In this document: positions 32,895-53,946 of the stretch, one piece after another
How positions within the stretch are numbered: the first letter of the stretch is position 1
Layout of the letters: each line of letters begins with the position of its first letter
NCBI GenBank assembly: GCA_016839165.1
Contig: CP069300.1
Span: 7,473,888-7,537,887 of the forward strand
Origin: Bradyrhizobium sp. PSBB068
GTDB taxonomy: Bacteria; Pseudomonadota; Alphaproteobacteria; Rhizobiales; Xanthobacteraceae
DNA length: 64,000 bases
Direction of reading: 5' to 3'
Position numbers and translations under genes: made by a program
The notes under the pieces: generated by a model
Database searches by the model: none
The model's input: the letters and a program-made list of their open reading frames with translations, nothing else
Told to the model about the DNA's origin: nothing

Positions 32895-32905
32895 GGGCAT
32901 TTTTG

Positions 32906-33334: not shown

Positions 33335-33464
33335 GGCCGCGCCGGCTGCCTTGACCGTTACATTCGAATACGCCCCCGCAAGTATTTTTTCTCCGCTCTA
33401 CGCCTGATCGCTACGCCGTGTGAATACTTGTTGAGGCGTCCCATTTCTTGCCTTTTCTAATCAT

Positions 33465-33505: not shown

Positions 33506-33511
33506 ACGATC

Positions 33512-34510: not shown

Positions 34511-34848
34511 TCCGTGCTCTCGCCGTCGCCAGTCGTGCGCGCCGCCGCCTGGCCGAATTCGTAGCCCTGACGACGCTCACCCTGGCCTTCGCCCCGGCCG
34601 CCTACGCCTCCGGCTCCTCCATGCCGTGGGAGACGCCGCTCAACTCGATCCTGGAGTCGGTGCAGGGCCCGGTCGCCAAGATCATCTCGGTCATCATCAT
34701 CACCGTGACCGGGCTGACGCTCGCCTTCGGCGACACCTCGGGCGGTTTCCGCCGGCTGATCCAGATCGTGTTCGGTCTGTCGATCGCCTTCGCGGCGTCG
34801 AGCTTCTTTCTGTCCTTCTTCAGCTTCTCCGGCGGGGCGCTGGTCTGA
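34507..34848 (+). CDS. trbC: Pilin precursor TrbC (VirB2-like)
   Basis: 113 residues. Signal peptide (LAEFVALTTLTLAFAPAAYAS) followed by two hydrophobic helices (IISVIIITVTGLTLAFGD and LIQIVFGLSIAFAASSFFLSFFSF), the usual VirB2/TrbC pilin plan. The conjugative pilus subunit; in RP4 it is cyclised by TraF, whose homologue is at 24.3 kb. Overlaps both neighbours. Confidence 0.93.
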   Translation: MIRALAVASRARRRLAEFVALTTLTLAFAPAAYASGSSMPWETPLNSILESVQGPVAKIISVIIITVTGLTLAFGDTSGGFRRLIQIVFGLSIAFAASSFFLSFFSFSGGALV

Positions 34849-35123
34849 TGGCCACGATCGTCGATCCCGACGTGCCCGGCTTCTTCGCTCCGGTCCATCG
34901 CGCGCTCACCGACCCGATCCTGATGGGCGGGGCGCCGCGGACCGTCGCGATCGCCAACGGCACCTTGGCGGCGGCGATCGCGCTCGGCCTCCGGCTCTGG
35001 ATCCCCGGCGCGCTCATCTGGGCAGTTGGCCATTCCGCCGCCGTCTGGGCGGCGAAACGGGACCCGCAATTCGTCGACGTGGTGCGCCGGCATCTTCGCT
35101 ACCCCGCACATCTGGGGGTGTGA
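34848..35123 (+). CDS. trbD: TrbD (VirB3-like) inner-membrane protein
   Basis: 91 residues: PGFFAPVHRALTDPILMGGAPRTVAIANGTLAAAIALGLRLWIPGALIWAVGHSAAVWAAKRDPQFVDVVRRH. Two short membrane segments and the TDPIL/GAPR motif of VirB3/TrbD proteins. Works with TrbE in pilus biogenesis. The start overlaps the trbC stop by one base. Confidence 0.93.
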   Translation: MATIVDPDVPGFFAPVHRALTDPILMGGAPRTVAIANGTLAAAIALGLRLWIPGALIWAVGHSAAVWAAKRDPQFVDVVRRHLRYPAHLGV

Positions 35124-35130
35124 GGCCACC

Positions 35131-37569: not shown

Positions 37570-38303
37570 TCAAGCTGCGCCATCTGGCGGCGGCAAGCGC
37601 CGTCGTGCTGTCCCTGGCCGTCGCCGTGCCGCCGGCTTCGGCGCAATGGATCGTCTACGACCCGACCAACTTCAGCCAGAACGTGCTGACGGCGGCGCGC
37701 GAGCTGCAGCAGATCAACAATCAGATCCAGATGTTGACCAATCAGGCGACGAGCCTGGTCAACCAGGCGCGCAATCTCGCCAACCTGCCGATGTCGACGC
37801 TGACCCAGCTTCAGTCATCGATCGCACAGACCCAGTCGCTCCTCGGCCAAGCGCAAAACATCGCCTTCAACGTCCAGCGGATCGAGCAGGCTTATTCGAC
37901 CAGCTATGGCAGCGCAGCGGGCACGGGCTCGACCACGACTATGGTCGCCAATGCTCAGCAGCGCTGGCAAAATTCGGTCGCGGCTTTCGAGGACAGCCTC
38001 AAGGTTCAGGCGGGCGTGGTCGGCAACATTCCGACCAATTCCAGCGCCATGACCTCCCTGGTCACAGCCAGCCAGAGCGCGACGGGTGCGCTGCAAGCGG
38101 CGCAGGCCGGGAACCAGCTTCTGGCCCTCCAATCCCAGCAGCTCTCCGACGTCGTCGCCGTGTTGTCGGCGAAAGGCCGTGCCGACGCGCTGGAGCAGGC
38201 GCGCGTCGCCGCCGCCGAGGCGCAAGGCCAGCAGAACTACAAGACCTTCTCGACACGCAGCGGCTACCAGCCCGGCAACGTCACCATGTTCAGCGGCAAC
38301 TGA
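37566..38303 (+). CDS. trbJ: TrbJ (VirB5-like) protein
   Basis: 245 residues. Signal peptide (AAASAVVLSLAVAVPPASA) and a long helical region (NVLTAARELQQINNQIQMLTNQATSLVNQARNLANLPMSTL) typical of VirB5/TrbJ. Probably at the pilus tip, acting in mating-pair formation. Tight coupling with trbE (ATGA). Confidence 0.93.
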   Translation: MIKLRHLAAASAVVLSLAVAVPPASAQWIVYDPTNFSQNVLTAARELQQINNQIQMLTNQATSLVNQARNLANLPMSTLTQLQSSIAQTQSLLGQAQNIAFNVQRIEQAYSTSYGSAAGTGSTTTMVANAQQRWQNSVAAFEDSLKVQAGVVGNIPTNSSAMTSLVTASQSATGALQAAQAGNQLLALQSQQLSDVVAVLSAKGRADALEQARVAAAEAQGQQNYKTFSTRSGYQPGNVTMFSGN

Positions 38304-38312
38304 GGCGCGCTG

Positions 38313-38639
38313 ATGCTGGGCCGGTCGGACATCTTCCGCGCCGCTGCGATCTTGGCCTTGATCGCGTGTTTCGCCGCGACCCTCTTCGCGATCAACCGGC
38401 ATCCCTCGGTGCCCGTTGTCGAGCCCCTTCCGACCGTCACCGCTCCAGCAACCGATGACCTCACGGCCGAGCTGCGCCGATGCGGCGCGCTCGGTCCCAA
38501 GGATGCCGTGGATGCGCGTTGCGAGGCGGTTTGGGAGGAAACCCGCCGGCGCTTCTTCGGTAGGCCGGCGCGGCCGCTGCCGCCATCGCCCCCGGGCGCC
38601 GTCGCGCCGGCCACCCCCGCTTCAGGAGATGCGCCATGA
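38313..38639 (+). CDS. trbK: TrbK-alt, putative entry-exclusion protein
   Basis: 108 residues with one N-terminal membrane segment (IFRAAAILALIACFAATLFAI) and the conserved ELRRCGALGPKDAVDARCEAVWEETRRRFFG. This is the TrbK-alt type, not the RP4 lipoprotein, and is generally proposed to reduce uptake of the same element by cells already carrying it. Between trbJ and trbL as usual. Confidence 0.88.
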   Translation: MLGRSDIFRAAAILALIACFAATLFAINRHPSVPVVEPLPTVTAPATDDLTAELRRCGALGPKDAVDARCEAVWEETRRRFFGRPARPLPPSPPGAVAPATPASGDAP

Positions 38640-39985
38640 ACAACGTCGGCGTCATCGACACCTTCCTCAACACGTTCACGACCTACATCGATTCCGGCTT
38701 CGGCCTGATCAAGGGCGAGGTCGCCTATCTGTCATCGACGCTGATCGTCATCGACATCACGCTGGCGGGGCTGTTCTGGGCCTGGGGCGCCGACGAAGAC
38801 ATCCTCCAGCGCCTGGTGAAGAAGACGCTCTACATCGGCTTCTTCGCCTTTATCATCACCAACTTCAACAACCTGTCGGCCATCGTCTTCAACAGCTTCG
38901 CGGGCCTCGGCCTGAAGGCCGGCGGCTCGACGATCTCGACCGCCACCTTTCTTCAGCCCGGCCATCTCGCGCAGGTCGGTCTCGACGCCGGCCAGCCGCT
39001 GCTCGACGCGGCGAGCCAGATGATGGGCTTCACCAGCTTCTTCGCGAACTTCGTCCAGATCGCGGTCCTGATGGTGTCGTGGCTCTTGGTGCTGATCGCC
39101 TTCTTCATCCTGGCGGTGCAACTCTTCGTCACGCTCATCGAGTTCAAACTGACGACGCTCGCCGGCTTCATCCTCATTCCCTTCGCCCTCTTCAACAAGA
39201 CCGCCTTCCTCGCCGAAAAGGTGCTCGGCAACATCGTCGCTTCCGGCGTGAAGGTCATGGTGCTCGCCGTCATCGTCGGCATCGGCACCGGGCTCTTCTC
39301 GCAGTTCACCCAGACCTATGCCGGCGGCCAGCCGACCATCGAGCAGGCGCTGTCCGTCGTGCTCGCGGCGCTGGCCATGCTCGGTCTCGGCATCTTCGGA
39401 CCCGGCATCGCTACGGGCCTCGTCTCTGGCGCGCCCCAACTCGGCGCGGGCGCTGCCGTCGGCACTGGCCTTGCCGTCGCCGGCACCGCCATGGCCGGGG
39501 CTGGCGCGCTTGGCCTGGCCGGAAGGGGAGCGATGGCGGCTGCGTCGGGGACGGCGGCCGCGGCCCGCGGTGGTGCTGCGATGGCCGGTGGCGCTTCGTC
39601 CGCCTACAGCCTGGCCTCCGCCGGCCGGTCCGGCGCTTCGGGCATGGCCGCTGGTCTTGGCGGTGTCGGTCGGGCCGCGGCGGCCGCGGCCTCAGCGCCA
39701 ATGCGGCGCGCGGCAGCTCAGGCCGCGGGCTCGATGCGCGACAGCTTCGCCGCCGGCGCGAGGTCCAGTTTCGCGGCCACGGGCGGCTCCTCGACGAAAG
39801 GAACGGTCGGCGGCGGCGAGCCGGCCGCCCCTGCGCCGAGTTCGAGCGGATCCAGTCCTCCCGCTTGGGCGCAGCGGATGCGACGCAATCAATCGATCCA
39901 CCAGGGCGCGACCACCGCGGCGCACGTCCTCAGGTCCGGTGACAGCCACGGCGGCGGCCATTCCGTCGATCTTTCGGGAGAATAG
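38636..39985 (+). CDS. trbL: TrbL (VirB6-like) channel protein
   Basis: 449 residues. Five to seven membrane segments in the first 280 residues (for example AVLMVSWLLVLIAFFILAVQLF), the conserved FNKTAFLAEKVLGN region, and a long Gly/Ala/Ser-rich, low-complexity tail. Polytopic core of the inner-membrane channel. The low-complexity C terminus is common in TrbL. Confidence 0.93.
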   Translation: MNNVGVIDTFLNTFTTYIDSGFGLIKGEVAYLSSTLIVIDITLAGLFWAWGADEDILQRLVKKTLYIGFFAFIITNFNNLSAIVFNSFAGLGLKAGGSTISTATFLQPGHLAQVGLDAGQPLLDAASQMMGFTSFFANFVQIAVLMVSWLLVLIAFFILAVQLFVTLIEFKLTTLAGFILIPFALFNKTAFLAEKVLGNIVASGVKVMVLAVIVGIGTGLFSQFTQTYAGGQPTIEQALSVVLAALAMLGLGIFGPGIATGLVSGAPQLGAGAAVGTGLAVAGTAMAGAGALGLAGRGAMAAASGTAAAARGGAAMAGGASSAYSLASAGRSGASGMAAGLGGVGRAAAAAASAPMRRAAAQAAGSMRDSFAAGARSSFAATGGSSTKGTVGGGEPAAPAPSSSGSSPPAWAQRMRRNQSIHQGATTAAHVLRSGDSHGGGHSVDLSGE

Positions 39986-39988
39986 ACA

Positions 39989-40678
39989 ATGGCGCTCTTT
40001 CGCCGATCCACGGTCCGCTACGGCCGTACCCCCGAACCCGAGACCCCCTACCAGCGCGCCGCCCAAGCTTGGGATGAGCGAATTGGTTCGGCCCGGGTGC
40101 AGGCGAAGAACTGGCGGCTGATGGCCTTCGGCTCACTCGCGCTTTCGATGGGTTTGGCCGGTGGCCTGGTCTGGCAGTCCACCCACGGCAGCATCGTCCC
40201 CTGGGTGGTGCAGGTCGACAAGCTCGGCCAAGCGCAGGCTGTCGCGCCGGCCACGGCCGACTATGCCCCGAGCGATCCGGAGATCGCCTGGTATCTCGCC
40301 CACTTCATCGAGATGGTCCGCTCGCTGCCGGCCGATCCGATCATCGTGCGGCAGAACTGGCTGCAGGCCTACGACTTCACCACGACCTCGGGCTCGCAGG
40401 CGCTCAACGACTACGCCCGCGCCAACGACCCCTTCGGCAAGCTCGGCCACCAGCAGATCGCCATCGACGTCTCGAGCGTGATCCGCGCCTCCCCGTCGAG
40501 CTTCCGCGTGGAATGGGTCGAGCACCGCTATCAGGACGGCGCGCTCGCCGAGACCTCACGCTGGACCGCGATCCTCACCGTCGCGATCCAGCCGCCAACC
40601 TCTGCCGACGTGCTCCGCAAGAATCCGCTCGGCATCTACGTCACTGCCATCAACTGGTCGAAGGAGCTGGGACAATGA
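39989..40678 (+). CDS. trbF: TrbF (VirB8-like) protein
   Basis: 229 residues. Short cytoplasmic N terminus with ETPYQRAAQAWDERIGSARVQAKNW, one membrane segment (LMAFGSLALSMGLAGGLVW) and a periplasmic VirB8 domain (VPWVVQVDKLGQAQAV, QNWLQAYDFTT). Assembly factor of the channel. The last bases overlap trbG (ATGA). Confidence 0.94.
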   Translation: MALFRRSTVRYGRTPEPETPYQRAAQAWDERIGSARVQAKNWRLMAFGSLALSMGLAGGLVWQSTHGSIVPWVVQVDKLGQAQAVAPATADYAPSDPEIAWYLAHFIEMVRSLPADPIIVRQNWLQAYDFTTTSGSQALNDYARANDPFGKLGHQQIAIDVSSVIRASPSSFRVEWVEHRYQDGALAETSRWTAILTVAIQPPTSADVLRKNPLGIYVTAINWSKELGQ

Positions 40679-41748
40679 CCCCGCCGATTTCCATGGAAGC
40701 CGGCGGTCCGGCTTCACGCCTTTCGGGTTTTGCACATGGCCGAGAGGGCGGACATACGCCTTTCCGTAAAGCCGGGCTCGCCGCTCTGCTCCTGTCGGTT
40801 ACTGCCCTCGCGGGCTGCGCGCACCCGTTCATCCCACCCGACATCAACTACGACAACGCCGTGCCGGCGAAGCTCTCCGTCGATCCACCGCCGCCGGTGA
40901 AGATCGTCGAGCTTCCGAAGCCTCTGCCGCTGCCGGGCCAGTTGAAGCCGCTCGATACCGGCAAGCCCGCGCCGGAAGCAACGGATCCCACCGTGCGCGT
41001 CAACCAGGCCAATGCGGCCGCCCGCATCCAGCCGGTTCGCAACGGCTTCATCAACGCCGTGCAGGTCTATCCCTATTCGGCGGGCGCGCTCTATCAGGCC
41101 TACACGGCGCCCGGCGAGATCACCGACATCGCGCTGCAGGAAGGCGAACAGCTCGTCGGCACGGGGCCGGTCGCCGCCGGCGACACCGTGCGCTGGATCA
41201 TCGGCGACACGGAAAGCGGCGCGGGTCCGACCAAGAAGGTCCACATCCTGGTCAAGCCGACCCGGCCGGACCTCATGACCAATCTCGTCATCAACACCGA
41301 TCGGCGGACCTATCTCCTGGAGCTGCGCTCGACCGAGAAGACCTATATGGCGTCGGTCTCCTGGCAATATCCCGAAGACCAGCTCATCGCGCTGCGTCAG
41401 CAGAATGCGGCGGCCGAAACAGCCGCGCCGATCGCCACCGGCGTCGATCTCGCCGCGATCAACTTCCGCTATGCGATCGAGGGTGACAATCCCGCTTGGC
41501 GGCCGCTGCGCGCCTTCGACGACGGCCAGAAGGTCTACATCGAATTCCCGTCCGGCATCCGCCAGGGCGAAATGCCGCCGCTCTTCGTCATCGGTCCGGC
41601 CGGCGGCTCCGAGCTGGTGAACTATCGCGTTCGCGCCAACTACTACATCGTCGACCGCCTGTTCGCCGCGGCCGAACTTCGTCTCGGCGACAAGGATAGC
41701 GAGCGTCGCGTCCGCATCGTGCGCACCGATGGAAGGCCGCGGTCATGA
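40675..41748 (+). CDS. trbG: TrbG (VirB9-like) protein
   Basis: 357 residues. A lipoprotein-type signal with the lipobox LAGC, preceded by an unusually long N terminus (about 45 residues; a later start is possible but no better SD was seen). VirB9/CagX domain: PYSAGALYQAYTAPGEITDIALQEGEQL, and TYLLELRSTEKTYMASVSWQYP. Outer-membrane-complex component with TrbI. Confidence 0.94.
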   Translation: MTPPISMEAGGPASRLSGFAHGREGGHTPFRKAGLAALLLSVTALAGCAHPFIPPDINYDNAVPAKLSVDPPPPVKIVELPKPLPLPGQLKPLDTGKPAPEATDPTVRVNQANAAARIQPVRNGFINAVQVYPYSAGALYQAYTAPGEITDIALQEGEQLVGTGPVAAGDTVRWIIGDTESGAGPTKKVHILVKPTRPDLMTNLVINTDRRTYLLELRSTEKTYMASVSWQYPEDQLIALRQQNAAAETAAPIATGVDLAAINFRYAIEGDNPAWRPLRAFDDGQKVYIEFPSGIRQGEMPPLFVIGPAGGSELVNYRVRANYYIVDRLFAAAELRLGDKDSERRVRIVRTDGRPRS

Positions 41749-42947
41749 CGGACGAACCGGAAGAGCAAGCGCCGGCGCCAGCGCCTGTCGTGCCGCCCGA
41801 TTTGCGGCTCCGGGGCGAGCGACCGCGCGTCACGCGCCTCTCGCGCAAGGTGCTGATCACGCTCGGCGCGGTGTCGGCCCTCGCGGTCGCGGGCGCTCTC
41901 GGCTACGCCCTTCAGACCCGGAACAAGTCGCAGACGGGGCAGGAGTTGCTCAGCACCCAAAGCCGGCCCTCGGCCGAGGGGCTGGCCGGGCTGCCGAAAG
42001 ACTATACCGGCCTTCCACGCCAGGCGCCGCAGCTAGGGCCGCCACTCCCGGGCGACCTCGGCAAGCCCATCCTCAATGCCGGCGCCGCGCCAAATACCAG
42101 CGTTTCGGCAACCACGCCCGATCCTGCGGCGCAACGGCTGGCTCAGGAGACCGAGGCAGCGCGTGTAAGCCGCCTGTTCGCCCAGACCAACCAGCAGCCG
42201 CAGCCGGTCGGCCTCGTTGCTCCGCCGGCGACGGCGACGCAGGGCGGTCCGACACCCACGCCACCCGTCGATGCTGGGTCCGCGCAGAACATGCAGGATC
42301 GCAAGACTGCGTTTCTCAACGCCGCGACGGACAAGCGAACGGTCAGCCCCGACCGTCTCGAAGCCAAGGCTTCGCCCTATGTCGTGCAGGCGGGAACCGT
42401 GATCCCTGCGGCGCTCATCACAGGCATCCGCTCCGATCTTCCGGGCCAGATCACTGCCCAGGTGACGGAGGCCGTCTACGACAGCCCGACCGGGCAATAC
42501 CTGTTGATCCCGCAGGGCGCGAAGCTGATTGGCCAATACGACAGCTCAGTCGCCTTCGGTCAGAGCCGCATCCTTCTCGTCTGGACGCGCATCATCATGC
42601 CGGACGGCAATTCCATCGTGCTGGAGCGGCAACCGGGCGCCGATACCCAAGGCTATGCGGGGCTCGAAGACGAGGTCGATAACCATTGGGGCATGCTGTT
42701 CAAGGCCGCCGTCCTCTCGACCCTCCTCAGCGTCGGCGCCGAAGCCGGTACGAGCCAGAACGAGAACAATCTCGTCCAGGCGATCCGCTCGGGCGCTTCG
42801 AACTCGATCAGCCAGACCGGCTCGCAGATCGTTCAGCGCCAACTCAACATTCAGCCGACGCTGACCATCCGGCCGGGCTTCCCGGTCCGCGTTATCGTCA
42901 CGCGCGACCTGGTGCTGGCGCCCTACGGCCACGGAGGCACTCCATGA
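41745..42947 (+). CDS. trbI: TrbI (VirB10-like) protein
   Basis: 400 residues. Cytoplasmic Pro-rich start, one membrane segment (VLITLGAVSALAVAGALGYAL), a Pro/Thr-rich linker and the VirB10 beta-barrel domain (VQAGTVIPAALITGIRSDLPGQITAQVTEAVYDSPTGQYLLIPQGAKLIGQYDS). Spans the envelope and connects energy from the ATPases to the outer complex. ATGA overlaps on both sides. Confidence 0.95.
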   Translation: MTDEPEEQAPAPAPVVPPDLRLRGERPRVTRLSRKVLITLGAVSALAVAGALGYALQTRNKSQTGQELLSTQSRPSAEGLAGLPKDYTGLPRQAPQLGPPLPGDLGKPILNAGAAPNTSVSATTPDPAAQRLAQETEAARVSRLFAQTNQQPQPVGLVAPPATATQGGPTPTPPVDAGSAQNMQDRKTAFLNAATDKRTVSPDRLEAKASPYVVQAGTVIPAALITGIRSDLPGQITAQVTEAVYDSPTGQYLLIPQGAKLIGQYDSSVAFGQSRILLVWTRIIMPDGNSIVLERQPGADTQGYAGLEDEVDNHWGMLFKAAVLSTLLSVGAEAGTSQNENNLVQAIRSGASNSISQTGSQIVQRQLNIQPTLTIRPGFPVRVIVTRDLVLAPYGHGGTP

Positions 42948-43201
42948 CGAAGCTCAAACTCGGGCCGCTGACCGACGACAAGCCGGTCAAGATGAGCGTC
43001 GAACTGCCCGCCGCCGTGCATCGCGATCTCGTCGCCTATGCTCAGGTGCTCGGCCGGACGAGCGGCCAAACGGCGCCCGATCCTTCGAAGCTCATCGTGC
43101 CGATGATCGAGCGATTCATGGCGACCGATCGCGCCTTCGCCAAGGCGCGTCGCGATCGGGCCGCTCAGGTCGCTGGCGGTTCGGCCGAGAAATCGGGATA
43201 G
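42944..43201 (+). CDS. DUF2274 family protein
   Basis: 85 residues: LKLGPLTDDKPVKMSVELPAAVHRDLVAYAQVLGRTSGQTAPDPSKLIVPMIERFMATDRAFAKARR. The family is found at the end of trb operons and has a ribbon-helix-helix-like pattern, so it may bind DNA. Role unknown. Its last 37 bp overlap the 3' end of the convergent LysR gene. Confidence 0.9.
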   Translation: MTKLKLGPLTDDKPVKMSVELPAAVHRDLVAYAQVLGRTSGQTAPDPSKLIVPMIERFMATDRAFAKARRDRAAQVAGGSAEKSG

Positions 43202-44094
43202 TTTTCGCGCAACATCGCCAGGAACGATCCCAGCGCGGGATTGCTGTTCGCATCTCGCCAACAGGCCATGAATTTGACTTGGGTCGGACCGTCGTCGTCC
43301 CAGACTTCCCGGTAGACGACGCCTTCGTAGCGGCCCCCCGTCGCGCCCTCGAACATCAGGAGCGTTCCATAATTCGCACTGACCAGGCTCAGCAGCCTGT
43401 CCAGTGACGAGTCCTGATGGACGATCCGCTGAGAGCCGACGGCATGACGAAGCTTCGCCATGAGCAGCCCCTCCAACTCCGGCCCAGGGCCTTGCTGTGG
43501 GACGAGAAATTTTTCGTTTGCGAGATCCGCCCAGCGAATCCTCGAATTCTGACCAAGCGGATGATGCTGCGGGAAAGACACGATCACCCGTTCGCTCCAG
43601 AGCGGGAGCATCCGGCCGTCCCAGGTGGTCGCATGGCCGGTCATGATCGCAATATCGACAGCGTTCCCCGCCAGAGCGCATAGCAGCCGATCCTGGCTGC
43701 CGTCGACGGTGCGCACATCCACATCCGGAAAACGCCGATGGTATTCGACCAAAGTCGCGTGCATGTGTCCCGCCGAGGGAGAGGCATGCACGCCGATCGT
43801 CAGGAGGCCGAGTTCGCCACGGCTTCTGCTTTTGATCCGTCGGAGCTCCGTGTCCACGTCATCGAGGATCCGTTTGGCGCTCGCGACGAACTCCAATCCC
43901 ACCGTGGTGAGGTGAGTGCCGCCATTCGTCCTTTCGAACAATACCACGCCAAGCTGGCGCTCGATCTCGTGCAGCCGGCGGCTCAAGGTCGATTGGCGTA
44001 TGTTCAGAGCTTCCGCCGCCTGCCGCAGGCTGCGGTGCTGTGACGTCACGACAGCCAAACGCAGATCACTAAGCTCTACATCCACACGACTCAC
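43165..44094 (-). CDS. LysR-family regulator at the end of the trb operon
   Basis: 309 residues. N-terminal winged HTH (FRQAAEALNIRQSTLSRRLHEIERQLG-like, here LRQAAEALNIRQSTLSRRLHEIE) and a LysR substrate-binding domain (LGLLTIGVHASPSAGHMHATLVEYHRRFPDVDVRTVDG). Similar LysR genes are common directly after trbI/DUF2274 in this ICE type. Target and effector unknown. Convergent with the trb operon with a 37-bp tail overlap. Confidence 0.88.
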   Translation of the reverse strand: MSRVDVELSDLRLAVVTSQHRSLRQAAEALNIRQSTLSRRLHEIERQLGVVLFERTNGGTHLTTVGLEFVASAKRILDDVDTELRRIKSRSRGELGLLTIGVHASPSAGHMHATLVEYHRRFPDVDVRTVDGSQDRLLCALAGNAVDIAIMTGHATTWDGRMLPLWSERVIVSFPQHHPLGQNSRIRWADLANEKFLVPQQGPGPELEGLLMAKLRHAVGSQRIVHQDSSLDRLLSLVSANYGTLLMFEGATGGRYEGVVYREVWDDDGPTQVKFMACWRDANSNPALGSFLAMLRENYPDFSAEPPAT

Positions 44095-44205
44095 TTCATC
44101 GGCCTGGACGGGCCGCCTTTCACAACTTCGCCCCCTCCTGCGTCCCCCTTTCGTGATCGACTCTACCCAAACGAATGTGTCGAGAGCTTGGTTCGATCCA
44201 ATGTC

Positions 44206-45381
44206 TCAGGCCGGCAATGGATCGGTGCCGCGATCGAGCAGGGCCAGGTAGTCCGAATAGGCGTAAATCCGGCCGCGCTGCCGTCCCGTGGTCTCGCGCA
44301 CGACACCGATCTTGGCGAGATTTTCCAGCGCCGTGCTGGCGGTCGGGAAGGAGACCGCAAGTCTCTCGGAGACAGTCTGGATGGTGACGATCGGGCTGGC
44401 TTGAATCAATTCGTGGACCCGGAGCGCCGACGGGGCCGCACGGCCGAGGCCAGCGATCTGCTGCCTATGGACGTCGAACATGGCGATCAGATCGCGCGCG
44501 GTCGCGGTAGCCTGATCAGCGGTCTCTGCGACGCCGGTCAGGAAGAATTCCATCCAGGTTTCCCAGGTCCCAGCCTGGCGGACCTCCTGCAGGAGCCGGT
44601 AATAGTCGTCGCGTCGGGATTTCAGGAACAGGCTGAGATAGAGGATCGGCTCGCGCAGCACCCCAGCCTCACACAGGATCAGCGTGATGAGCAGCCGGCC
44701 GAGGCGCCCGTTGCCGTCGAGGAAGGGGTGGATCGTCTCGAACTGGACGTGGGCCAGGCCCGCCCGGATGAGCGGGGGCAGCGCCGCATCCTCGCTGTGC
44801 AGGAAGCGCTCGAGCGAATCGAGACATTCGTCCAGCCGGTTCGGCGGCGGGGGCACGAACAGGGCGTTGCCGGGCCGGGTTCCGCCGATCCAGTTCTGCG
44901 AGCGGCGGAACTCGCCCGGCTGCTTTGCGGCGCCCCGTCCCGACTTGAGCAGGATGGCGTGCATTTCGCGGATCAGCCGCAGCGACAACGGAAATCCGCC
45001 GCGCATCCGGGAGACGCCATGCTCGATCGCCGCGACGTAGTTCGAAACCTCGGTCACGTCGTCGAGTAGGGCTGCCGGCGCCTCATGATTTTCGAACAGC
45101 AGCAGATCCGACAACGAGGATTGCGTCCCCTCGATCTGCGAGGACAGGAGGGCTTCCTTGCGGACGTACATGTAGAGGAACAAAGGCGTCGAAGGCAGGA
45201 TCGTCGTCACGCCGTCGAGGCGCCCGACCGCGGTGATGGCGCGTTCATAGACCTGCATGAACCGTCCGAGTTCAAGCGGCGGATTCGGCGGCAGTGGGGC
45301 AGGCACATAGGCCCGCACGCGCTCGCCTCCCGCGCTCGTTTCGACATAGGCGCCGAGCCGTTGGTTCTCTCCGTCCGCCAC
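44206..45381 (-). CDS. Fic-domain protein with C-terminal winged helix
   Basis: 391 residues. Fic_N region, Fic core HPFLDGNGRLGR (218-229), the complete AMP-transferase motif, and an N-terminal inhibitory motif SSQIEG (80-85) that marks a class II self-inhibited Fic enzyme. The C-terminal wHTH (QASPIVTIQTVSERLAVSFPTASTALENLAKIGVVRETTG) resembles the DUF4172/Fic-HTH family. Expected to AMPylate a protein target; the HTH suggests self-regulation. No separate antitoxin gene is beside it. Confidence 0.92.
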   Translation of the reverse strand: MADGENQRLGAYVETSAGGERVRAYVPAPLPPNPPLELGRFMQVYERAITAVGRLDGVTTILPSTPLFLYMYVRKEALLSSQIEGTQSSLSDLLLFENHEAPAALLDDVTEVSNYVAAIEHGVSRMRGGFPLSLRLIREMHAILLKSGRGAAKQPGEFRRSQNWIGGTRPGNALFVPPPPNRLDECLDSLERFLHSEDAALPPLIRAGLAHVQFETIHPFLDGNGRLGRLLITLILCEAGVLREPILYLSLFLKSRRDDYYRLLQEVRQAGTWETWMEFFLTGVAETADQATATARDLIAMFDVHRQQIAGLGRAAPSALRVHELIQASPIVTIQTVSERLAVSFPTASTALENLAKIGVVRETTGRQRGRIYAYSDYLALLDRGTDPLPA

Positions 45382-45389
45382 GCGCGATC

Positions 45390-45416
45390 CTTTAATTAGC
45401 TTCGCCGTTATTAAAG
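45390..45416. promoter_or_regulatory. A+T-rich inverted repeat upstream of the Fic gene
   Basis: CTTTAAT (45390-45396) and ATTAAAG (45410-45416) are a perfect inverted repeat ending 9 bp before the Fic start codon, in an A+T-rich island (45390-45450) unusual for this GC-rich region. It may be promoter plus operator for the Fic wHTH; inferred from position. Confidence 0.5.
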
Positions 45417-45482
45417 TATAATCCCATATATATTAATAGTGGGCGGGACTAATTCAAGGCTCCGCAGCGGTCGCTCCCTCGT

Positions 45483-46364
45483 CTAGAGCTTCCCGACCGG
45501 GAGAAGCTCGTTCAGCAGCCGATTGGGGAACCGCCGCTTCTGCACGATGGCGTAAAACGTCTCCGTGACCTCGGGTATCCGGCAGTGCTCGACAAGAACG
45601 CCCGCCTCAAGTTCGTCGCGGACGACAATCGGAGGCACGAGGGTCACGCCCTCCCGTTCACGGGCGAGCAGACGCAGCATCGCCATGTCGTCGACTTCGG
45701 CCAGGATGATGGGTCTTATCCCGGCTAGCTCGAGCACCCGATCGAAGGCGACGCGAATATCGCTGTCTAGGCTCGGCAAAAGAATTGGCTCCGACCGGAG
45801 ATCATCGGGAAATTTGAACTTGCGGCCATCGGGACGCGGATGACCGACCAAGCTCACGGGCTGCTCGTTCAGCAAATGATTGCGCAATGACGAGCGGGCG
45901 TCGCGCGGCGCGGCGCTGTTCGCCAGGACCACGTCGATGGCGTGCGCCTCCAATTGCGCGAGCAGATCGCGAATATTGCCTGAGCGGACGATCAATTCGA
46001 CATCCGATCGGCCGATCAAGGGCCGGAGGAATTCGAGCTGGAAATTTCGCGAAAGCGTCGTTAGCGCGCCGACGCGGAGAACCTGACGGGTAGCCAGCGG
46101 CTGCCCCCGCAGGGTGCTCATGAGTTCATCGCCGGCCTTGAACACCGTATCGGCGTAATCGAGCGCGATCTGGCCAGCTTCTGTCAAAAGGAGCTTCCTG
46201 CCGACTCGCTCGAAAAGCGGATGGCTCATCTGGTGTTCAAGCTTCTGAATTTGAACAGAAAGAGCCGACTGGGACAGGTTCATGCGCTCGGCCGCCCGCG
46301 TGAGGCTGCCCTCGTGAGCCACCACCCAGAAGTAGCGCAGGTGATTGTAGTTCAGGTCTCTCAT
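45483..46364 (-). CDS. LysR-family regulator divergent from dabBA
   Basis: 293 residues. HTH (LTRAAERMNLSQSALSVQIQKLEHQMSHPLFERVGRKLLLTEAG) and LysR substrate domain. Overall pattern (MRDLNYNHLRYFWVVAHEGSLTRAAE) is NhaR-like. Divergent from dabB across a 107-bp gap with a T-N11-A site at its own start, so it most likely controls the dab cluster. Effector unknown; in other bacteria LysR genes sit beside dab loci. Confidence 0.88.
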   Translation of the reverse strand: MRDLNYNHLRYFWVVAHEGSLTRAAERMNLSQSALSVQIQKLEHQMSHPLFERVGRKLLLTEAGQIALDYADTVFKAGDELMSTLRGQPLATRQVLRVGALTTLSRNFQLEFLRPLIGRSDVELIVRSGNIRDLLAQLEAHAIDVVLANSAAPRDARSSLRNHLLNEQPVSLVGHPRPDGRKFKFPDDLRSEPILLPSLDSDIRVAFDRVLELAGIRPIILAEVDDMAMLRLLAREREGVTLVPPIVVRDELEAGVLVEHCRIPEVTETFYAIVQKRRFPNRLLNELLPVGKL

Positions 46365-46366
46365 GT

Positions 46367-46385
46367 CGTTCTATTAAAACGAACG
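46367..46385. promoter_or_regulatory. LysR-type operator (T-N11-A) between lysR and dabB
   Basis: CGTTC-N9-GAACG (46367-46371 and 46381-46385) is a perfect inverted repeat containing TTC-N9-GAA, the T-N11-A form of LysR binding sites. It abuts the lysR start codon, which fits autorepression, and lies about 87 bp before dabB, where an activator recognition site is expected. Confidence 0.7.
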
Positions 46386-46471
46386 ACTTTGCCAAAACAA
46401 TGAATTTTTTTCGGATTTCGTGATCAGGTACCAACGTCCCCGAACAGTCATTGTCTTAAAAGGGGGCTCTC

Positions 46472-48031
46472 GTGCAGCACTTCCTCGCGCCGCTGTCGGC
46501 GCCCGTTCCGCTGCTTCTCGCCGGAGCAATCGGCTTCCTCCATCGTGGTCGGCGGCCGAAACTCAGCCCCTTGCTGGCCGAAACCGCTTCGCTCATCGCG
46601 TTGCTTGCGGCGATCCTATCAGCCGGGGGCCTGATCCTCTTCGGCGCTGTCGAAAGTCCCGTCCTCGGGTTCAGGGGACTCGGTACTTCGGTCAGGCTCG
46701 ACGCCGTCAGCGCGACCATGTTGCTGCCGGTGACGTTCGTCGGCTGGATCGTCGTCCGCTATGCGCGGACCTACCTGGACGGCGAGGCCCGCCAAGGCGC
46801 CTTCACCGGGTGGCTTTGCCTGACACTGGCGTCGGTGGCGCTACTCGTGACCGCCGGCAATCTGTTCCAGCTGGTGATCGCCTGGATCGCCACCAGCCTG
46901 TTTCTGCACCGGCTCCTGCTGTTCTATCCGCAGCGCATTGCCGCGCAGCGGGCGGCGCGGAAGAAGTTCATCACCGCGCGGCTTGGCGATGCCGCGCTCC
47001 TTGGTGGCGCGTTTTTGCTGGCCGCCGCTTACGGGACGTCGGACATCGGCACTATCCTTGCCGCCGCGAAGTTGGGTGCGGGTGGAGGGCTCGCCATCGC
47101 CGCCGCCGGCTTGCTGGCGATCGCTGCGGTGCTCAAGTCGGCTCAGTTTCCAGCCCATGGCTGGCTCACCGAGGTGATGGAGACGCCAACGCCGGTATCG
47201 GCTCTCCTCCACGCCGGCGTGATCAATGCCGGCGGCTTTCTGCTGATCCGCTTTGCTGACGTCATGCTGCTAGCGCCCGGCGTGCTTGCCGCGCTGGTCA
47301 TGATTGGCGGGTTCACCGCGCTGTTCGGCAGCCTGGTCATGCTGACCCAGCCCTCGGTCAAGACCTCGCTCGCCTGGTCGACGGTAGCCCAGATGGGGTT
47401 CATGATCTTCGAGTGCGGCCTGGCGCTCTTCCCTCTGGCGCTTCTGCACATCGTCGCCCACTCGCTCTACAAGGCGCACTCCTTTCTCGCCTCCGGCGGC
47501 GCCGTTGAGCGCGTGGCTGCGATCCGCAGGCCCGGCCCAGTCGCCGTGCCAAAGGCCGGCGCCGTCGCGCGCGCCTTTCTCTCGGCGCTCGCCATCTATG
47601 TCCTTGTCGGGGCTTGCTTCGGCTTCGAGCACAAATCGCCTCAGGCGATCGCGCTCGGCGCCATATTGATCTTCGGCGTCGCCTACATGCTGGCGCAAGG
47701 GTTCGCCGACGCAGCGCCCAGAGCGCTGACACGGCGCACGGCCGTCTATGCCGTGGCGACCTCGGTCGGCTACTTCGCCCTTCAGTGGGCGGCGACCGCG
47801 ATCACCGCGAATGTCCTGCCGCCGCCGCCGGCGCCTGGTCCGCTCGAATGGGCGCTGATCGCACTGACGGCCGCGAGCTTCGGCATCGTCGCCATCGTGC
47901 AGGCCATGTTTCCCCTCTGGGCCAACCATCCCGCCGCCGCCGGCCTGCGCGTGCATCTTTCGAACGGATTTTACGCCAACGCCGTTTTCGACCGGCTGAT
48001 CGGCGGCTGGTCCGTCCGCAACCCATCCTAA
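46472..48031 (+). CDS. dabB: DabB, NuoL-like membrane subunit of DAB inorganic-carbon transporter
   Basis: 519 residues from a GTG with an AGGGGG SD. About 13-14 membrane segments with the proton-pumping NADH dehydrogenase/Mrp antiporter core ([45 protein letters not shown]). No other complex I genes are near, and dabA follows 19 bp later. DAB complexes (DabA plus DabB) accumulate dissolved inorganic carbon using a cation gradient, DabB being the ion-translocating part. Confidence 0.92.
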
Positions 48032-48050
48032 CCGACCAGGAAGACCGATC

Positions 48051-50477
48051 ATGAACAACGAAATCCTCTCGACCTGGCCCGCCCCGCAAGCGTTGACGCT
48101 GGCCATGGATCGCGCCGCCCGCGCGGTCCCGCCCGCTTGGCCCTTGGCGTCCAGCGTCGCGGTCAATCCGTTTCTTGGGCAAACCGACGAGCCCCTCGCC
48201 AAGGTCGGCGCGCGGCTCGCAAGGGTCGCCGGCGCCGCCGTCACGATGCCCCGGAGCTGGTATGGCCAGAAGATCGCCGCAGGCGTGATCAGTGACGCTG
48301 ACCTTTCGGACGCTCTGGCGAGCGTCTCGACGGGGCCGAGACCTGCGGATGTAACGGCTTTGAAGGCCGCTGCCGGCGTCGAAGCGCCGCCCCCAAAATC
48401 GCTTCCGACCGTCGCCGACCTGGCGGCGCGCGCGTCCGGCGTCGACTGGCCGGGGATGATCGCCGAACGCTTCGGAGCCTGGGCCGCCGGCTATTTCGAC
48501 CAAGGGCAGGCGCTGTGGGCCGCACCGAAAGGCAAGGGCGCCTACGCCGCCTGGCGGGCGATCGCCACCCACGACCTCACGCCCGAAATCGCCGGGCTCC
48601 CTAACTTCGCCCTGCACGTATCGGAGGCGCCGGAGACCGCCTCAGCTGTGGTTGAACGCGTCGTCACTCGGCTGGGATTGGAGGCGGGCGCCGCCGAAAC
48701 ATACTTCCATCAGATGCTCATGACCCTTGGCGGCTGGGCGCAATATGCCCGCTACAGGCTTTGGCAGGCCGAGCTCGCCGACGGCGCGGATGAGACGATC
48801 ACCGATTTCCTGGCGATCCGGCTGATCTGGGAAGAAGCACTCTTTCTGCATTTCGGCGTCGAGATCGCCGAGGCTTGGGCAAGCGTGCGGAAAGCGCACG
48901 CCACGCCCCTCGCGCCGACGCTCGATTGCGCCATCGACGCCATCCTGCAGGAGGCTGCCGAGCGCTCTGCGCAGCGAGCGTTGGGGCAGACTCTAGCCGC
49001 GCAGTCTCCTCCAGCGCTTGATGATAGACCCGCGCTCCAGGCCGCCTTTTGCATCGATGTTCGCTCCGAGGTTTTTCGCCGAGCGCTCGAAAGTATCGAT
49101 CCCAGGATCCAGACCATAGGCTTTGCCGGCTTTTTCGGTCTTACCACCACGCACCGGCGCTTCGCCTCGGACGTCGAGGAACGGCGGCTGCCAGTTCTGC
49201 TCAATCCCGCGCTCAGGTCGTGCTCCGGCGGCCCGGCTCTCCACGCGGAGGATCAGTCGACGCGGTTCAAGGCGCGCGCAAAGCGCGCCTGGGGCCGGTT
49301 CAAGCTCGCCGCCGTCTCATCTTTCGCCTTCGTCGAGGCGACCGGTCCCGTCTATGTCGGCAAGCTGCTGACTGATGCGTTGAGATTGGACGGCGCTCGG
49401 CCGCCCGGCGATCCGGCGCCTCGGCTCGATCCCGCGCTCGACGCGACCGCCCGGGCGAAGGCCGCCGAGACCGTGCTGCGCGCGATGTCCCTGACCCGCG
49501 ACTTTGCACCGCTGGTGCTTCTGGCCGGTCATGGCGCCAACGTCGTCAACAATCCTCATGCCAGCGCCCTGCATTGCGGCGCCTGCGGCGGCTATTCCGG
49601 AGAGGTCAACGCCCGACTGCTCGCCTCACTTCTGAACGATGCCGAGGTGAGAGATGGGCTCTCGCAGAGTGAGATCGAAATTCCAGACGACACGCTGTTT
49701 GTGGCGGCGCTCCACGACACCACCACGGACGACCTGACCCTCTATGACGAGGATCATCCCTCCGCCGCCCACAAGGGCGACCTCGATCAGGCGAGAACCT
49801 GGCTGGCTTCGGCGGGCAAGATGGCGCGGACCGAACGCGCCCTTCGCTTGCCCCGGGCCGCAAGCGAGGCCGCCCTTCATCGCAGAAGCCGCGACTGGTC
49901 CGAGACCCGGCCCGAATGGGCCCTCGCCGGATGCCAGGCCTTCATCGCCGCCCCGCGCAGGCGCACGGTCGGCAAGAGCCTGGAAGGCCGGGCCTTCCTG
50001 CATGACTACGATTGGAAGCAGGACAAGAGCTTCAGCGTTCTCGAGCTGATCCTGACCGCTCCGGTCGTCGTGGCGAGCTGGATCAGCCTGCAATATTATG
50101 GATCGACCGTCGCGCCCGATGTCTTCGGGGGCGGCAACAAGCTCCTACACAATGTCACCGGCGGGATCGGTGTGGTCGAGGGCAATGGCGGGCTCCTGCG
50201 CGTCGGCTTGCCATGGCAGTCGGTCCACGACGGCGAGCGCTATGCGCACGATCCGCTGCGGCTGTCGGTCTGCGTCGAGGCCCCGCGTGAAGCGATGTCG
50301 GAGATCCTTGGCCGGCACGCGGGCGTGCGCGCCCTGTTCGACAATGGCTGGCTGCATCTGTTCGCCCTGGACGAGGCCGGGCGCATGGCCTGGCGTTACG
50401 CAGGCGATCTCAAATGGTCGGCGATGGGAGACCGCGAGGCCTCTCATGCGTCGCCGCAACTCACAGTGGCGGTCTGA
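48051..50477 (+). CDS. dabA: DabA (DUF2309), carbonic-anhydrase-like subunit of DAB
   Basis: 808 residues, standard for DUF2309. The beta-carbonic-anhydrase-like zinc site is complete: Cys334 and Asp336 in FCIDVRSE, His494 in [11 protein letters not shown], and Cys509 in LHCGACGG. The 2- and 15-residue spacings match Halothiobacillus DabA (C351, D353, H524, C539). It is thought to hydrate CO2 unidirectionally when coupled to DabB. The N-terminal [12 protein letters not shown] is also conserved. Confident family call; activity untested. Confidence 0.95.
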
Positions 50478-50528
50478 CACCATGCCCCGCCAGCCCCGCA
50501 GTGCGAATTCCGGTCAGGAGCCAAGGTC

Positions 50529-51434
50529 ATGACCCGAGCCGCAAACCATCTCGCCGCGCTGGAGTCCGAGGCGATCCACATCATCCGTGAAGTGGTCGCC
50601 GAAGCGCGAAACCCGGTGATGCTGTTCTCGGCCGGCAAGGACTCGACGGTGATGGCGCATCTCGCCATCCGAGCCTTCTATCCGGGTACGCCGCCGTTTC
50701 CCTTGCTCCATGTCGACTCGACCTGGGAATTCCGATCACTGATCGAATTTCGGGACGCTTTCGCCAGCAAGCACGGCTTGCGTCTCATCGCGCATGCCAA
50801 TGAGGAGGGACGAGCCGCGGGCATCAACCCGTTCGACCACGGGGAGCGATACACGACGGTCATGCGCACGGAGCCGTTGAAGGCGGCGCTCGATGCCGGC
50901 GGGTACGACATCATCTTCGGCGGGGCTCGCCGCGACGAAGAGAAGTCACGCGCCAAGGAGCGTATCGTCTCGATCCGGAACGCGGCGCACGCTTGGGAGC
51001 CGCGCCAGCAGCGCCCCGAGCTCTGGAAACTCTACAACGCCCGCCTCGCCAAGGGCCAAAGCGCGCGGGTCTTCCCCCTGTCCAATTGGACCGAGACGGA
51101 TATTTGGGCTTACGCCCTGCTCAACGATATCGAGCTCGCGCCGCTCTACTATGCCGCTCCACGCCCTGTGGTCGAACGCGGCGGCGCCTTCATCGTGGTC
51201 GATGACGAAAGCCGGATGCGGTTCCTCCCCGGCGAGCAGACGTCCATCCGCAAGGTGCGTTTTCGCACGCTCGGCTGCTGGCCAGTGACGGGAGCCATCG
51301 AATCCGATGCCTCCGACCTGCGGTCCGTCGTGGACGAAACCCTCAGAGCATCCTCATCCGAGCGGCAAGGACGCATCAGCGACGGCGAGGATGGCGGCTC
51401 GCTCGAACAGAAAAAGCGCGAAGGCTATTTCTGA
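50529..51434 (+). CDS. cysD: CysD-like sulfate adenylyltransferase subunit 2, without cysN
   Basis: 301 residues, full length. PP-loop SAGKDS (34-39; canonical CysD has SGGKDS), [49 protein letters not shown] and the diagnostic C terminus [11 protein letters not shown]. CysD makes adenosine phosphosulfate with the GTPase CysN, but no cysN is near. The ATG lies 51 bp after dabA with GGAG upstream, and its stop overlaps the next start, so it belongs to the dab cluster. Its job there is unknown; it could work with a chromosomal CysN or have a different substrate. Confidence 0.9.
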
Positions 51435-52303
51435 TGGCTGGCTCAAGTCCGTGGAACTATCTCGACATCCAGGCGGTGCTGACCACGATGCACGCCAAGG
51501 AGCGTGTCATTGCTCCAATCCTGCGAGAAGGGCTGGGTCTGCGCGTTGAATTGGTCCGGTCTGTCGATACGGATCGATTTGGTACGTTCAGTCGCGAGGT
51601 CGAACGGCTCGGCTCGCAACTGGACGCAGCGAAGGCGAAGATAGCCGCGGGTTTTGAACGGGCTCCCGGCGCGCGCGTGGGATTGGCGAGCGAGGGAAGC
51701 TTCGGACCCCATCCCCACATCCCCTTCCTGGCGCTCGGGCGCGAACTCGTTCTGATGGTCGACCGCGACAATGGTCTTGAACTCATCGGCTACGACGCTA
51801 GCCCGGAAACCAATTTCGCGCATGCGATTGCGCGCGATTTCGATGAAGCAATTGCATTCGCTGAACGCGTCAGGTTCCCCGAGCATGGTCTGATCGTCAT
51901 GGGATGCCACGACGATCAGCCGGCGCCGGAGATCCTTCTGCGGAAGGATGTCACGGACCGTGACATGTTCGGGTCTGCGGTGCGGGAGGCGTGTAGCCGG
52001 TGCGGCGCCGCCTTTGTCGAAACCGACATGCGCGCCCATCGGAACCCAACCCGAATGGCCGCGATCGCACGCGCCACAAATGACCTCGTGCGCCGCTTTC
52101 ACAGCCGATGCCCGGAGTGCGACTACCCGGGTTTCGACGTAACCGAACGTGTTCCCGGCCTGCCGTGCGCTTGGTGCGGCGAGCCGACGCGCGTTGTCAT
52201 GACCAACGTTCTCACGTGCCGACCATGTGGTCACAGGCTTGAGCGACCGGCCTCCGATCAGACGACGGCAGATCCCGGACAATGCGATGGATGCAATCCC
52301 TAG
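51434..52303 (+). CDS. DUF6671-like protein with C-terminal zinc ribbons
   Basis: 289 residues. N-terminal alpha/beta domain (TTMHAKERVIAPILREGLGLRVELVRSVDTDRFGTFSREVERLGSQ-type start), a middle with ASEGSFGPHPHIPFLALGRELVLMVDR, then Cys pairs CSRC, CPEC, CAWC and CRPC in the last about 110 residues that can form two zinc ribbons. I recognise it as the DUF6671 family (recalled, not searched); function unknown. ATG overlaps the cysD stop (TGATG), so expression is coupled to cysD. Confidence 0.75.
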   Translation: MAGSSPWNYLDIQAVLTTMHAKERVIAPILREGLGLRVELVRSVDTDRFGTFSREVERLGSQLDAAKAKIAAGFERAPGARVGLASEGSFGPHPHIPFLALGRELVLMVDRDNGLELIGYDASPETNFAHAIARDFDEAIAFAERVRFPEHGLIVMGCHDDQPAPEILLRKDVTDRDMFGSAVREACSRCGAAFVETDMRAHRNPTRMAAIARATNDLVRRFHSRCPECDYPGFDVTERVPGLPCAWCGEPTRVVMTNVLTCRPCGHRLERPASDQTTADPGQCDGCNP

Positions 52304-52339
52304 GCGTCGTTGCGCCAATTTATCATCGGAGTGAGTCCA

Positions 52340-52564
52340 ATGGTTGAAAGTGTTGCAGAAGGTACTTCTGGGGATGACCCTCAGTTCGATGCTGACGCGC
52401 ATATTGCTTTCATCCTCAAACATCCCGGCATGAGTGATTGGTTGAAGACGGCTTTGCAGGAGGCATTGCCGCGCGACCCCACAGCCGTGCTCAACGACCT
52501 CGAAATCCTCAATCTCGTTTTGCGGAAACGGTCAGAGGCCTTGATTGCCGGGATGTTTGCCTAA
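52340..52564 (+). CDS. Small helical protein, last gene of the dab cluster
   Basis: 74 residues from ATG 52340 with GGAGTGAG upstream; a TTG at 52310 would extend it by 10. Acidic N terminus, then two predicted helices (HIAFILKHPGMSDWLKTALQEAL and PTAVLNDLEILNLVLRKRSEALIAGMF). No Cys, no signal peptide, no family recognised. It lies 36 bp after the DUF6671 gene in the same direction. Confidence 0.6.
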   Translation: MVESVAEGTSGDDPQFDADAHIAFILKHPGMSDWLKTALQEALPRDPTAVLNDLEILNLVLRKRSEALIAGMFA

Positions 52565-52693
52565 GTAGGTGCCGATCAGGACCAACAGGACACCCCAGGA
52601 GCCAGGCCAAACCCCATGCTGATCGCTGAGTTCTGAACCTGGCGTTACGTGAGATAAGGCGGAGCAGGCCGGTTTGCCCGGGTAGACCGCTCG

Positions 52694-53344
52694 TTATCCG
52701 GACGAAAGAGCGACCATGACCTCGTTCCGGCGCATGAACCAAGGCGTCCAAGGCGGATTGTATTGGGCCAGCGTAACCGGTCCGATTGGCTGCAAATGAC
52801 GAGATCTGACTGCGTCAAGAAGTTCTGCGTCTTTGGCTTCGACTTCACTTCTGCGCGCTAAGCCTGAGAAACGCAGTACCGCGACACGAGTCGCCGGCAG
52901 CGAACGCAGTGTCACTCGCGGATCGTTGGGCTCGGGAAGCATCTCGATTGTCGTGAAGGCGCTCGGCATGGTGAACCTGACGACCCAATTGTCGGCGACC
53001 TTCGTTTGGGTGACGGGAGCCGTCATCGCGATCTTCTCGCTGACTGGCTGTTGAGCCACAGGAGCAGTCATGGCGATCGTTTGACGGCCCTTATTTCCAC
53101 CGAATATGTAGCCAGCTAGCAACCTAAATCCTTTGCTGGCTGCTTCTTTCTGCTCTCCCGATACAGTGACTTCGGCCACGATCAGCCGGGGATAATCCCT
53201 GACCTCGAACGCGCCATCATGCATGACGGTTTGGAAAGAGGGTTCTTCGACAGCCATTGCGGGACTTCCGATCGCCACGATCGCCAAGGCGACCAACAGC
53301 CCAAATTGTCTCAAGCTCATCGCGCCAGATTTTTCTCGCGGCAT
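52694..53344 (-). CDS. SOUL-family haem-binding protein, exported
   Basis: 216 residues. N-terminal signal peptide (LLVALAIVAIGSPAMA), then the SOUL domain: EPSFQTVMHDGAFEVRDYPRLIVAEVTVSGEQKEAASKGFRLLAGYIFGGN, two IAMTAPV repeats, and YNPPWTPWFMRRNEVMVAL. SOUL proteins bind haem or related tetrapyrroles. A second Met at residue 9 may be the start. It is the last gene before the tRNA; whether it belongs to the element or the chromosome is unclear. Confidence 0.88.
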   Translation of the reverse strand: MPREKSGAMSLRQFGLLVALAIVAIGSPAMAVEEPSFQTVMHDGAFEVRDYPRLIVAEVTVSGEQKEAASKGFRLLAGYIFGGNKGRQTIAMTAPVAQQPVSEKIAMTAPVTQTKVADNWVVRFTMPSAFTTIEMLPEPNDPRVTLRSLPATRVAVLRFSGLARRSEVEAKDAELLDAVRSRHLQPIGPVTLAQYNPPWTPWFMRRNEVMVALSSG

Positions 53345-53577
53345 CCACCCATTGAGATCGGAAATGGCTACTAGGGAGCCAAGTCGCTACCGCTTTCACC
53401 AACCCGCCGACCTTGGCGGTCGAGACGGCTAACGCCGTTCTCTCGCTCGCTACCTGCGATGTAGTGCTCGAAAGCTGGCCGCCATAATCAACCTACGATT
53501 TGGCGGGCCGAGTCGTCGCCATTCAAAATAGGAACGCGGCCCAAGCTGACCTCACGGTCGACGGCAATTTTTAGAAA

Positions 53578-53654
53578 TGGCGCACCCGACACGATTCGAA
53601 CGTGTGGCCTCCACCTTCGGAGGGTGGCGCTCTATCCAGCTGAGCTACGGGTGC
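53578..53654 (-). tRNA. tRNA-Arg (anticodon CCG)
   Basis: 77 nt including CCA. Acceptor stem GCACCCG/CGGGTGC, D arm GCTCAGCTGGATAGAGC, anticodon stem CCACC/GGTGG with loop CTCCGAA (anticodon CCG, reads CGG), T arm with CGTTCGAATCG, and encoded CCA. All stems pair, so it should be functional. A 41-nt 5'-half relative lies 252 bp upstream of it (53906-53946). Confidence 0.95.
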
Positions 53655-53905: not shown

Positions 53906-53946
53906 CCTTCGGAGGGCAACGCTCTATCCAGCTGAGCTACGGGTGC
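53906..53946 (-). repeat. Truncated tRNA-Arg 5' half, probable attachment-site scar
   Basis: The first 27 nt (GCACCCGTAGCTCAGCTGGA and on) are identical to the intact tRNA-Arg; then TTG replaces CCA and CCCTCCGAAGG is again identical, after which homology stops inside the anticodon region. A break at the anticodon loop is a common crossover point for tyrosine recombinases. It marks the chromosome-side border of foreign DNA. Confidence 0.7.

Follow-up and report, generated by a model that had tools for sequence, protein, structure and literature searches.

The stretch of DNA analysed here (hereafter the window) comprises 64,000 nucleotides of contig CP069300.1 of Bradyrhizobium sp. PSBB068, and positions 45483-52564 hold a divergent LysR gene and the operon dabB-dabA-cysD-DUF6671-small gene, which combines a DAB-type inorganic-carbon uptake system with three further genes. 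Gene order and coordinates, first proposed in a sequence-only reading, were confirmed, as was its five-gene operon with spacings of 19 bp (dabB/dabA), 51 bp (dabA/cysD), -1 bp (cysD/DUF6671) and 36 bp (DUF6671/small gene), and each named gene matched its family model. The DAB operon is genuine and mobile, and the accessory module that accompanies it recurs elsewhere and extends past DAB systems.

The first gene, dabB (46472-48031, + strand), encodes a Complex I/Mrp-type membrane subunit of 519 aa (PF00361, 134.6 bits; PF00662, 35.1 bits). It adjoins dabA (48051-50477, + strand; 808 aa), whose product matches PF10070 with 883.7 bits and is homologous to the solved DabA2 chain 9rd0_A over residues 19-784 (582 bits). 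The residues C334, D336, H494 and C509 named in the sequence-only reading are present, fall in segments conserved with the 9rd0 chain, and are presumably the zinc ligands. The two defining parts of a DAB complex, a PF10070 DabA with these Cys/Asp/His/Cys residues and an adjoining Complex I/Mrp-type DabB, are thus both found. Then come a cysD-like gene for a PP-loop protein of 301 aa (50529-51434, + strand; TIGR02039, 438.5 bits; 1zun_A, 383 bits) that lacks a cysN, a DUF6671 gene of 289 aa (51434-52303, + strand; PF20376, 180.4 bits for a cut-off of 23.8) whose start overlaps the cysD stop, and a gene for a conserved 74-residue protein (52340-52564, + strand). The DAB2 complex of Halothiobacillus neapolitanus (DabA2-DabB2, 9rd0) has the same DabA/DabB pair and consists of two subunits, while DAB1 has three, the third being a small transmembrane protein (available part of PMC13144422); the window system differs from DAB2 in being the cargo of a mobile element and in its CysD-like, DUF6671 and small proteins.

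The divergent regulator (45483-46364, - strand; PF00126 and PF03466) scored 130.6 bits against the NhaR model, under the cut-off of 219. A homologue more than 40% identical was found in 58 of 80 DabA-bearing loci, and LysR is a common partner of DabBA. The 107-bp intergenic region (46365-46471) is presumed to hold the divergent promoter and operator. Words of the form T-N11-A, claimed earlier as an operator, do occur in it, but there are eight of them, and the most palindromic (TCTATTAAAACGA at 46370) matches at 8 of 13 positions; since such words are so common there, the case for an operator is weak.

The operon is carried near one end of an integrative and conjugative element (ICE). Both ends of the element carry a direct repeat of the 3' end of tRNA-Arg, exact over 29 bp and imperfect over about 45 bp: the attR core lies at 53578-53624, in the 3' end of tRNA-Arg(CCG), and the far-end attachment (att) repeat lies outside the window (G000:C1:7454525), adjoining a tyrosine-integrase gene (L104:731-2107). 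The location of these two repeats gives an element size of about 73.0 kb. The conjugation block (25222-42947, + strand; PF01464, PF03432, PF02534, PF00437, PF04610, PF03524, PF03743) contains a lytic transglycosylase, a relaxase, a coupling protein and type IV secretion system (T4SS)/Trb genes, with other open reading frames interspersed. An ICE is defined by an integrase, by flanking att repeats at a tRNA, and by a T4SS with its relaxase and coupling protein; all are present here and support the earlier view of the DAB operon as ICE cargo. To judge from these features, the operon is horizontally mobile.

Other Trb-type elements carry the same module. A locus in genome G474 (L119, from the survey of the Mesorhizobium order) is 93.4% identical to window positions 43367-53624 (10.3 kb), and its homology stops at 53624, within the tRNA core; this near-identical right end in a second genome is an indirect sign of transfer. 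In two further loci (L043, L125) the module adjoins trb genes that are only related (about 71-75% identical to those of the window), and these are other elements. DAB operons were also observed near stretches homologous to the ICE backbone in L082 and L130 (window 4.9-7.0 kb and, in pieces, 5.3-14.1 kb), which may make DAB a repeated ICE cargo. Both conjugative elements and plasmids are thereby seen to carry a carbon-uptake component. A RuBisCO operon is present in the host (transketolase, aldolase, large and small subunits, AAA protein), and imported bicarbonate could therefore feed CO2 fixation.

The neighbourhood survey covered DUF6671 genes beside DabA and beside SbtA, a bicarbonate carrier unrelated to DAB. 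DUF6671 lay near one of the two transporters in 14 of 15 loci of the Mesorhizobium order, in 11 of 14 loci of Dokdonella's class (the sub-threshold match G944 being left out of an initial 15) and on 10 of 12 plasmids, the sequence of the two others (L003, L007) breaking off within cysD or upstream of it. The figure for the host's class was only 8 of 17 loci; of 18 places, the two in G332 look like a single gene split across contig ends and were counted once, and a fragment with internal stops (L055, G109) was scored as unlinked. DUF6671 adjoined DabA in just four of the 52 DabA-bearing genomes of that class, which makes it an accessory and not a core component. Since cysD and DUF6671 partners were found in many other elements and genomes, the association is not a peculiarity of this one element, an outcome that would have counted against the module idea. 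It is, however, not the fixed set of partners first suggested: besides the low count in the host's class, DUF6671 also accompanies SbtA, cysD lies on either side of DUF6671 or is absent, and only some of the loci have the small gene. The term DUF6671 was not found in the literature searched, and cysD is not mentioned in the papers found by term search to name both DabA and inorganic carbon transporters. That the partner genes recur beside two unrelated pumps suggests that an as yet undescribed module assists or controls the uptake of inorganic carbon.

Some DUF6671 loci have other contents. In five islands (L044, L121, L111, L115, L144) ilvD, pyrC, cysD(N), terC or tsaC replaces or adjoins the carbon transporter. 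A lower-scoring DUF6671 branch (about 79-116 bits; L046, L048, L050, L052, L049, L051, L054) occurs in loci without a carbon transporter, several of which have nearby genes that resemble peptide ABC transporters by eye.

The structure of DUF6671 was predicted using AlphaFold2 (predicted local distance difference test, pLDDT, 94.1), and fold searches with the model returned ITPase/YjjX-like proteins, so that the predicted structure shares the fold of the ITPase/YjjX/Ham1 superfamily. It differs from the pyrophosphatases of this group (ITPase, YjjX, Ham1/RdgB) and from the HcgB guanylyltransferase by a predicted ATP-grasp-like insert (about residues 127-200) and a cysteine-rich C-terminus, at an identity of about 8-17%. 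A profile search of the PDB gave a best E value of 0.03, to short stretches of zinc-ribbon and other proteins. A link with P-II proteins, the family to which the SbtA regulator SbtB belongs, is provided by one natural fusion (P0134) of a P-II domain (43.8 bits) with DUF6671 (174.5 bits), and by locus L011, where the order is sbtA, P-II-like gene, DUF6671 and the P-II protein is 75% identical to the domain of the fusion. P-II genes adjoin SbtA in Arthrobacter plasmids and DabA in Mycolicibacterium; PF00543 is absent from the Pfam matches of the window DUF6671 at E <= 0.1. P-II-like genes were also observed adjoining DabA in L063, L080, L083 and L086, all without DUF6671, and among DabA loci with DUF6671 only in L118 (by tblastn); P-II and DUF6671 may therefore substitute for each other. 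The P-II-like SbtB of cyanobacteria is described as a regulator of the CO2-concentrating mechanism that binds adenyl nucleotides and is active as an ATPase/ADPase (PMC10991534, in the part available). DUF6671 recalls the SbtA-SbtB pair in adjoining SbtA, in following a P-II-like gene in L011 and in being fused once to P-II; it departs from it in a predicted fold unlike that of SbtB, in also accompanying DAB, and in the window operon having no P-II gene.

The cysD-like gene was compared with CysD of the CysDN ATP sulfurylase (1zun), to which its product is homologous over the whole length, sharing the PP-loop and the GGARRDE motif (CysD/CysN are the subject of PMC4373884, of which a part was available). 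The comparison at residue 67, in the motif HVDTTWKF, used 20 module copies and 16 copies from the same genomes, plasmids and other islands, the lysine of this motif being defined here, from the paired copies, as a CysDN feature. Position 67 is acidic in all 20 module copies (19 E, 1 D), including the window copy with E instead of K, and is lysine in 15 of the 16 cysN-paired copies; the exception (L160, N) has a very long branch and is possibly misaligned. Among the 20, L003 was included though its contig starts inside cysD, and the other 19 have a transporter in the locus; L007, truncated before residue 67, was excluded. A CysN gene adjoins none of the 20 module copies in the available DNA (only 1.3-1.6 kb past cysD for L004 and L116), the window copy among them, against 16 of the 16 comparison copies, four of these on weaker evidence (a partial gene at a contig end in L148, two overlapping and possibly broken pieces in L111, a motif in L159 and the annotation "GTP-binding protein" in L160). 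Catalytic motifs are kept, the PP-loop is intact, and 82 alignment columns are invariant across both groups.

Given the missing CysN, the acidic residue 67 and the retained catalytic motifs, the module "cysD" has probably lost its role as a sulfate enzyme and would act on something else. The lysine-to-acid difference thus offers a sharp one-residue prediction of altered function, and a "cysD" beside dabA should not be assumed to denote sulfate assimilation. With CysN absent and residue 67 acidic, the link to sulfur metabolism that had been suggested for the last three genes becomes unlikely; a role of CysD in sulfur assimilation was rejected as the leading explanation on these grounds, and is retained below as a rival. 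On the best CysD tree the module label needs four changes, two of them forced by strongly supported branches. Repeated gain of the acidic-67, CysN-less form would be the simplest reading, but the program does not distinguish gains from losses and cautions that long branches are joined (L128 and the remainder). Of the separate cases L128 is the clearest, as it falls with the lysine-bearing L102 and L152 (100/100). An earlier tree placed 18 of 21 module copies in a single, moderately supported cluster (89/85), with L123, L128 and L091 outside it. A CysN-less CysD with D at position 67 also adjoins DabA in a locus without DUF6671 (L091:6066-6953). A scan of viral contigs found no CysD relatives.

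The last gene of the operon has no Pfam or NCBIfam match, but the sequence-only reading was right to call it a gene: its 74-residue product matches 23 database entries (of which P0260 is given as the window copy itself), and it occupies the equivalent place, after DUF6671, in 16 other loci. The product has three predicted helices (AlphaFold2 model helical, pLDDT 84.7); the PDB gave a best match of only E 4.1 by sequence, and by fold none at E <= 0.001 (best E 2.5).

By analogy with the solved DAB2 homologue, DabB would conduct protons and DabA would hydrate CO2 to bicarbonate unidirectionally. The operon would also carry an accessory module that is not bound to a single transporter. In this module DUF6671 would most likely be a cytosolic nucleotide-binding or -hydrolysing partner that tunes carbon uptake to the nucleotide state of the cell, in a role resembling the one SbtB has for SbtA, although the folds differ. 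The product of the cysD-like gene would be a former ATP-sulfurylase catalytic subunit, whose ATP-pyrophosphatase chemistry now serves the uptake module and not sulfate activation, and would adenylylate DUF6671 or the transporter, or make the ligand for either. That the module handles nucleotides and assists or regulates two carbon-uptake systems is, in our estimate, an evenly balanced proposition. The gene content, the ICE ends, the recurrence beside two unrelated transporters, the P-II fusion, and the residue-67 difference with the absence of CysN are observed, the DUF6671 fold is predicted, and regulation, substrate and direction of control are inferred; regulation is the best supported reading, though unproven. 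A more specific version, held only tentatively, is a general and undescribed control module in which DUF6671, as an ITPase/ATP-grasp-like nucleotide enzyme, and a repeatedly recruited CysD, as a PP-loop adenylyl enzyme that has given up sulfate, might produce, sense or remove an adenylate signal or a protein AMPylation gating the evolutionarily unrelated DAB and SbtA, the whole being spread by ICEs and plasmids. How DAC/DAB transporters are regulated against futile cycling is an open question in the available part of PMC13144422, and a concrete candidate regulator is offered by DUF6671, which accompanies both of the unrelated systems DAB and SbtA, is predicted to fold like a nucleotide pyrophosphatase and is known in one fusion with P-II.

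The main rival is an island of spare parts for CO2 limitation, in which DUF6671, CysD, IlvD, PyrC and TsaC would be metabolic enzymes whose reactions suffer at low CO2 or bicarbonate, co-inherited with a bicarbonate supplier without forming a physical or regulatory complex. TsaC uses bicarbonate. Comparison of 68 DUF6671 loci with 42 DabA loci without DUF6671 showed enrichment of cysD (21/68 vs 1/42), ilvD and pyrC (10/68 each), terC (9/68) and tsaC (7/68; the last four 0/42 each), with p-values to be read knowing that the query genes were chosen from the DUF6671 loci themselves and that loci are partly dependent (L108/L109 from one strain, L006/L007 from one genus). In six of six genomes checked, the ilvD of the island is additional to another copy (in G632 the gene lies just beyond the locus taken), and a carbamylated lysine is described for the IlvD/EDD family and for dihydroorotase (available parts of PMC5770437 and PMC8659124, respectively). 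Against this, the carbamylated-lysine motifs were inspected for CO2-independent IlvD or PyrC variants and none was found: ordinary motifs are retained (IlvD CDK in 10/10; K-x-YPA in the readable PyrC copies), so a low-CO2 variant is not seen. Moreover, the E. coli-type PyrC is often the sole such copy above cut-off, most of the 68 loci lack ilvD, pyrC, tsaC, terC and cysD, and cysD and terC do not fit the theme of CO2 shortage, as we know of no CO2 dependence for either. This rival is considered unlikely.

Still less probable is that DUF6671 is an enzyme consuming the bicarbonate that is taken up, or a nucleotide derived from that bicarbonate, with CysD giving an adenylylated intermediate. An ATP-grasp-like insert and an ITPase-like site would suit such a role; however, a single ATP-grasp subdomain was matched, with Z little above chance, no product or pathway gene is constant, and the transporters are the commonest neighbours.

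A similarly low probability is given to CysD as a spare sulfate adenylyltransferase subunit that uses the host CysN, its place in the operon being incidental. The window protein does exceed the curated NCBIfam cut-offs (451 vs 413 bits) with its PP-loop intact, the host genome encodes elsewhere a distant CysD with a CysN-like gene after it, and G003 has no other full CysD, whereas a higher-scoring second CysD exists in G387-G391 and G031. The consistent acid-for-lysine difference and the clustering of most module copies apart from canonical ones weigh against it.

The least probable rival is a loosely assembled stress or metal island (DUF6671 with terC, carbonic anhydrase, pyrC and raiA) whose inorganic-carbon transporter replaces a failing zinc carbonic anhydrase: it draws on the TerC enrichment, a Mycolicibacterium plasmid with carbonic anhydrase, dabBA and TerC, and a Pseudomonas plasmid with raiA, TerC and pyrC, but carbonic anhydrase is not enriched (3/68 vs 1/42), DabA is itself a presumed zinc enzyme, and the products of ilvD, cysD and tsaC are, to our knowledge, not zinc enzymes. 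Enrichment was likewise not significant in the 68 and 42 loci for BioA, BioD, MurF, trpB, photolyase and other occasional neighbours; photolyase-like genes, identified by eye, lie near DUF6671 in L039, L040, L005 and L137 (4/68 vs 0/42, p 0.14).

Several smaller features of the element were recorded. The module does not directly follow the trb operon as had been described, a second LysR gene (43165-44094) and a Fic/DOC gene (44206-45381) separating the two. On the other side, the sole gene from the DAB module to attR belongs to the SOUL heme-binding family (52694-53344) and occurs in the related loci L003 and L004. The tRNA scar reported there is a separate 5'-half copy at about 53908-53946, perhaps left by another integration event; tRNA-Arg itself (53578-53654) is intact. 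At the left end of the ICE (L104:3265-7875), genes resembling by eye those for a cytosine methyltransferase, a nuclease of the Vsr type and a helicase of large size may represent a defence or modification island.

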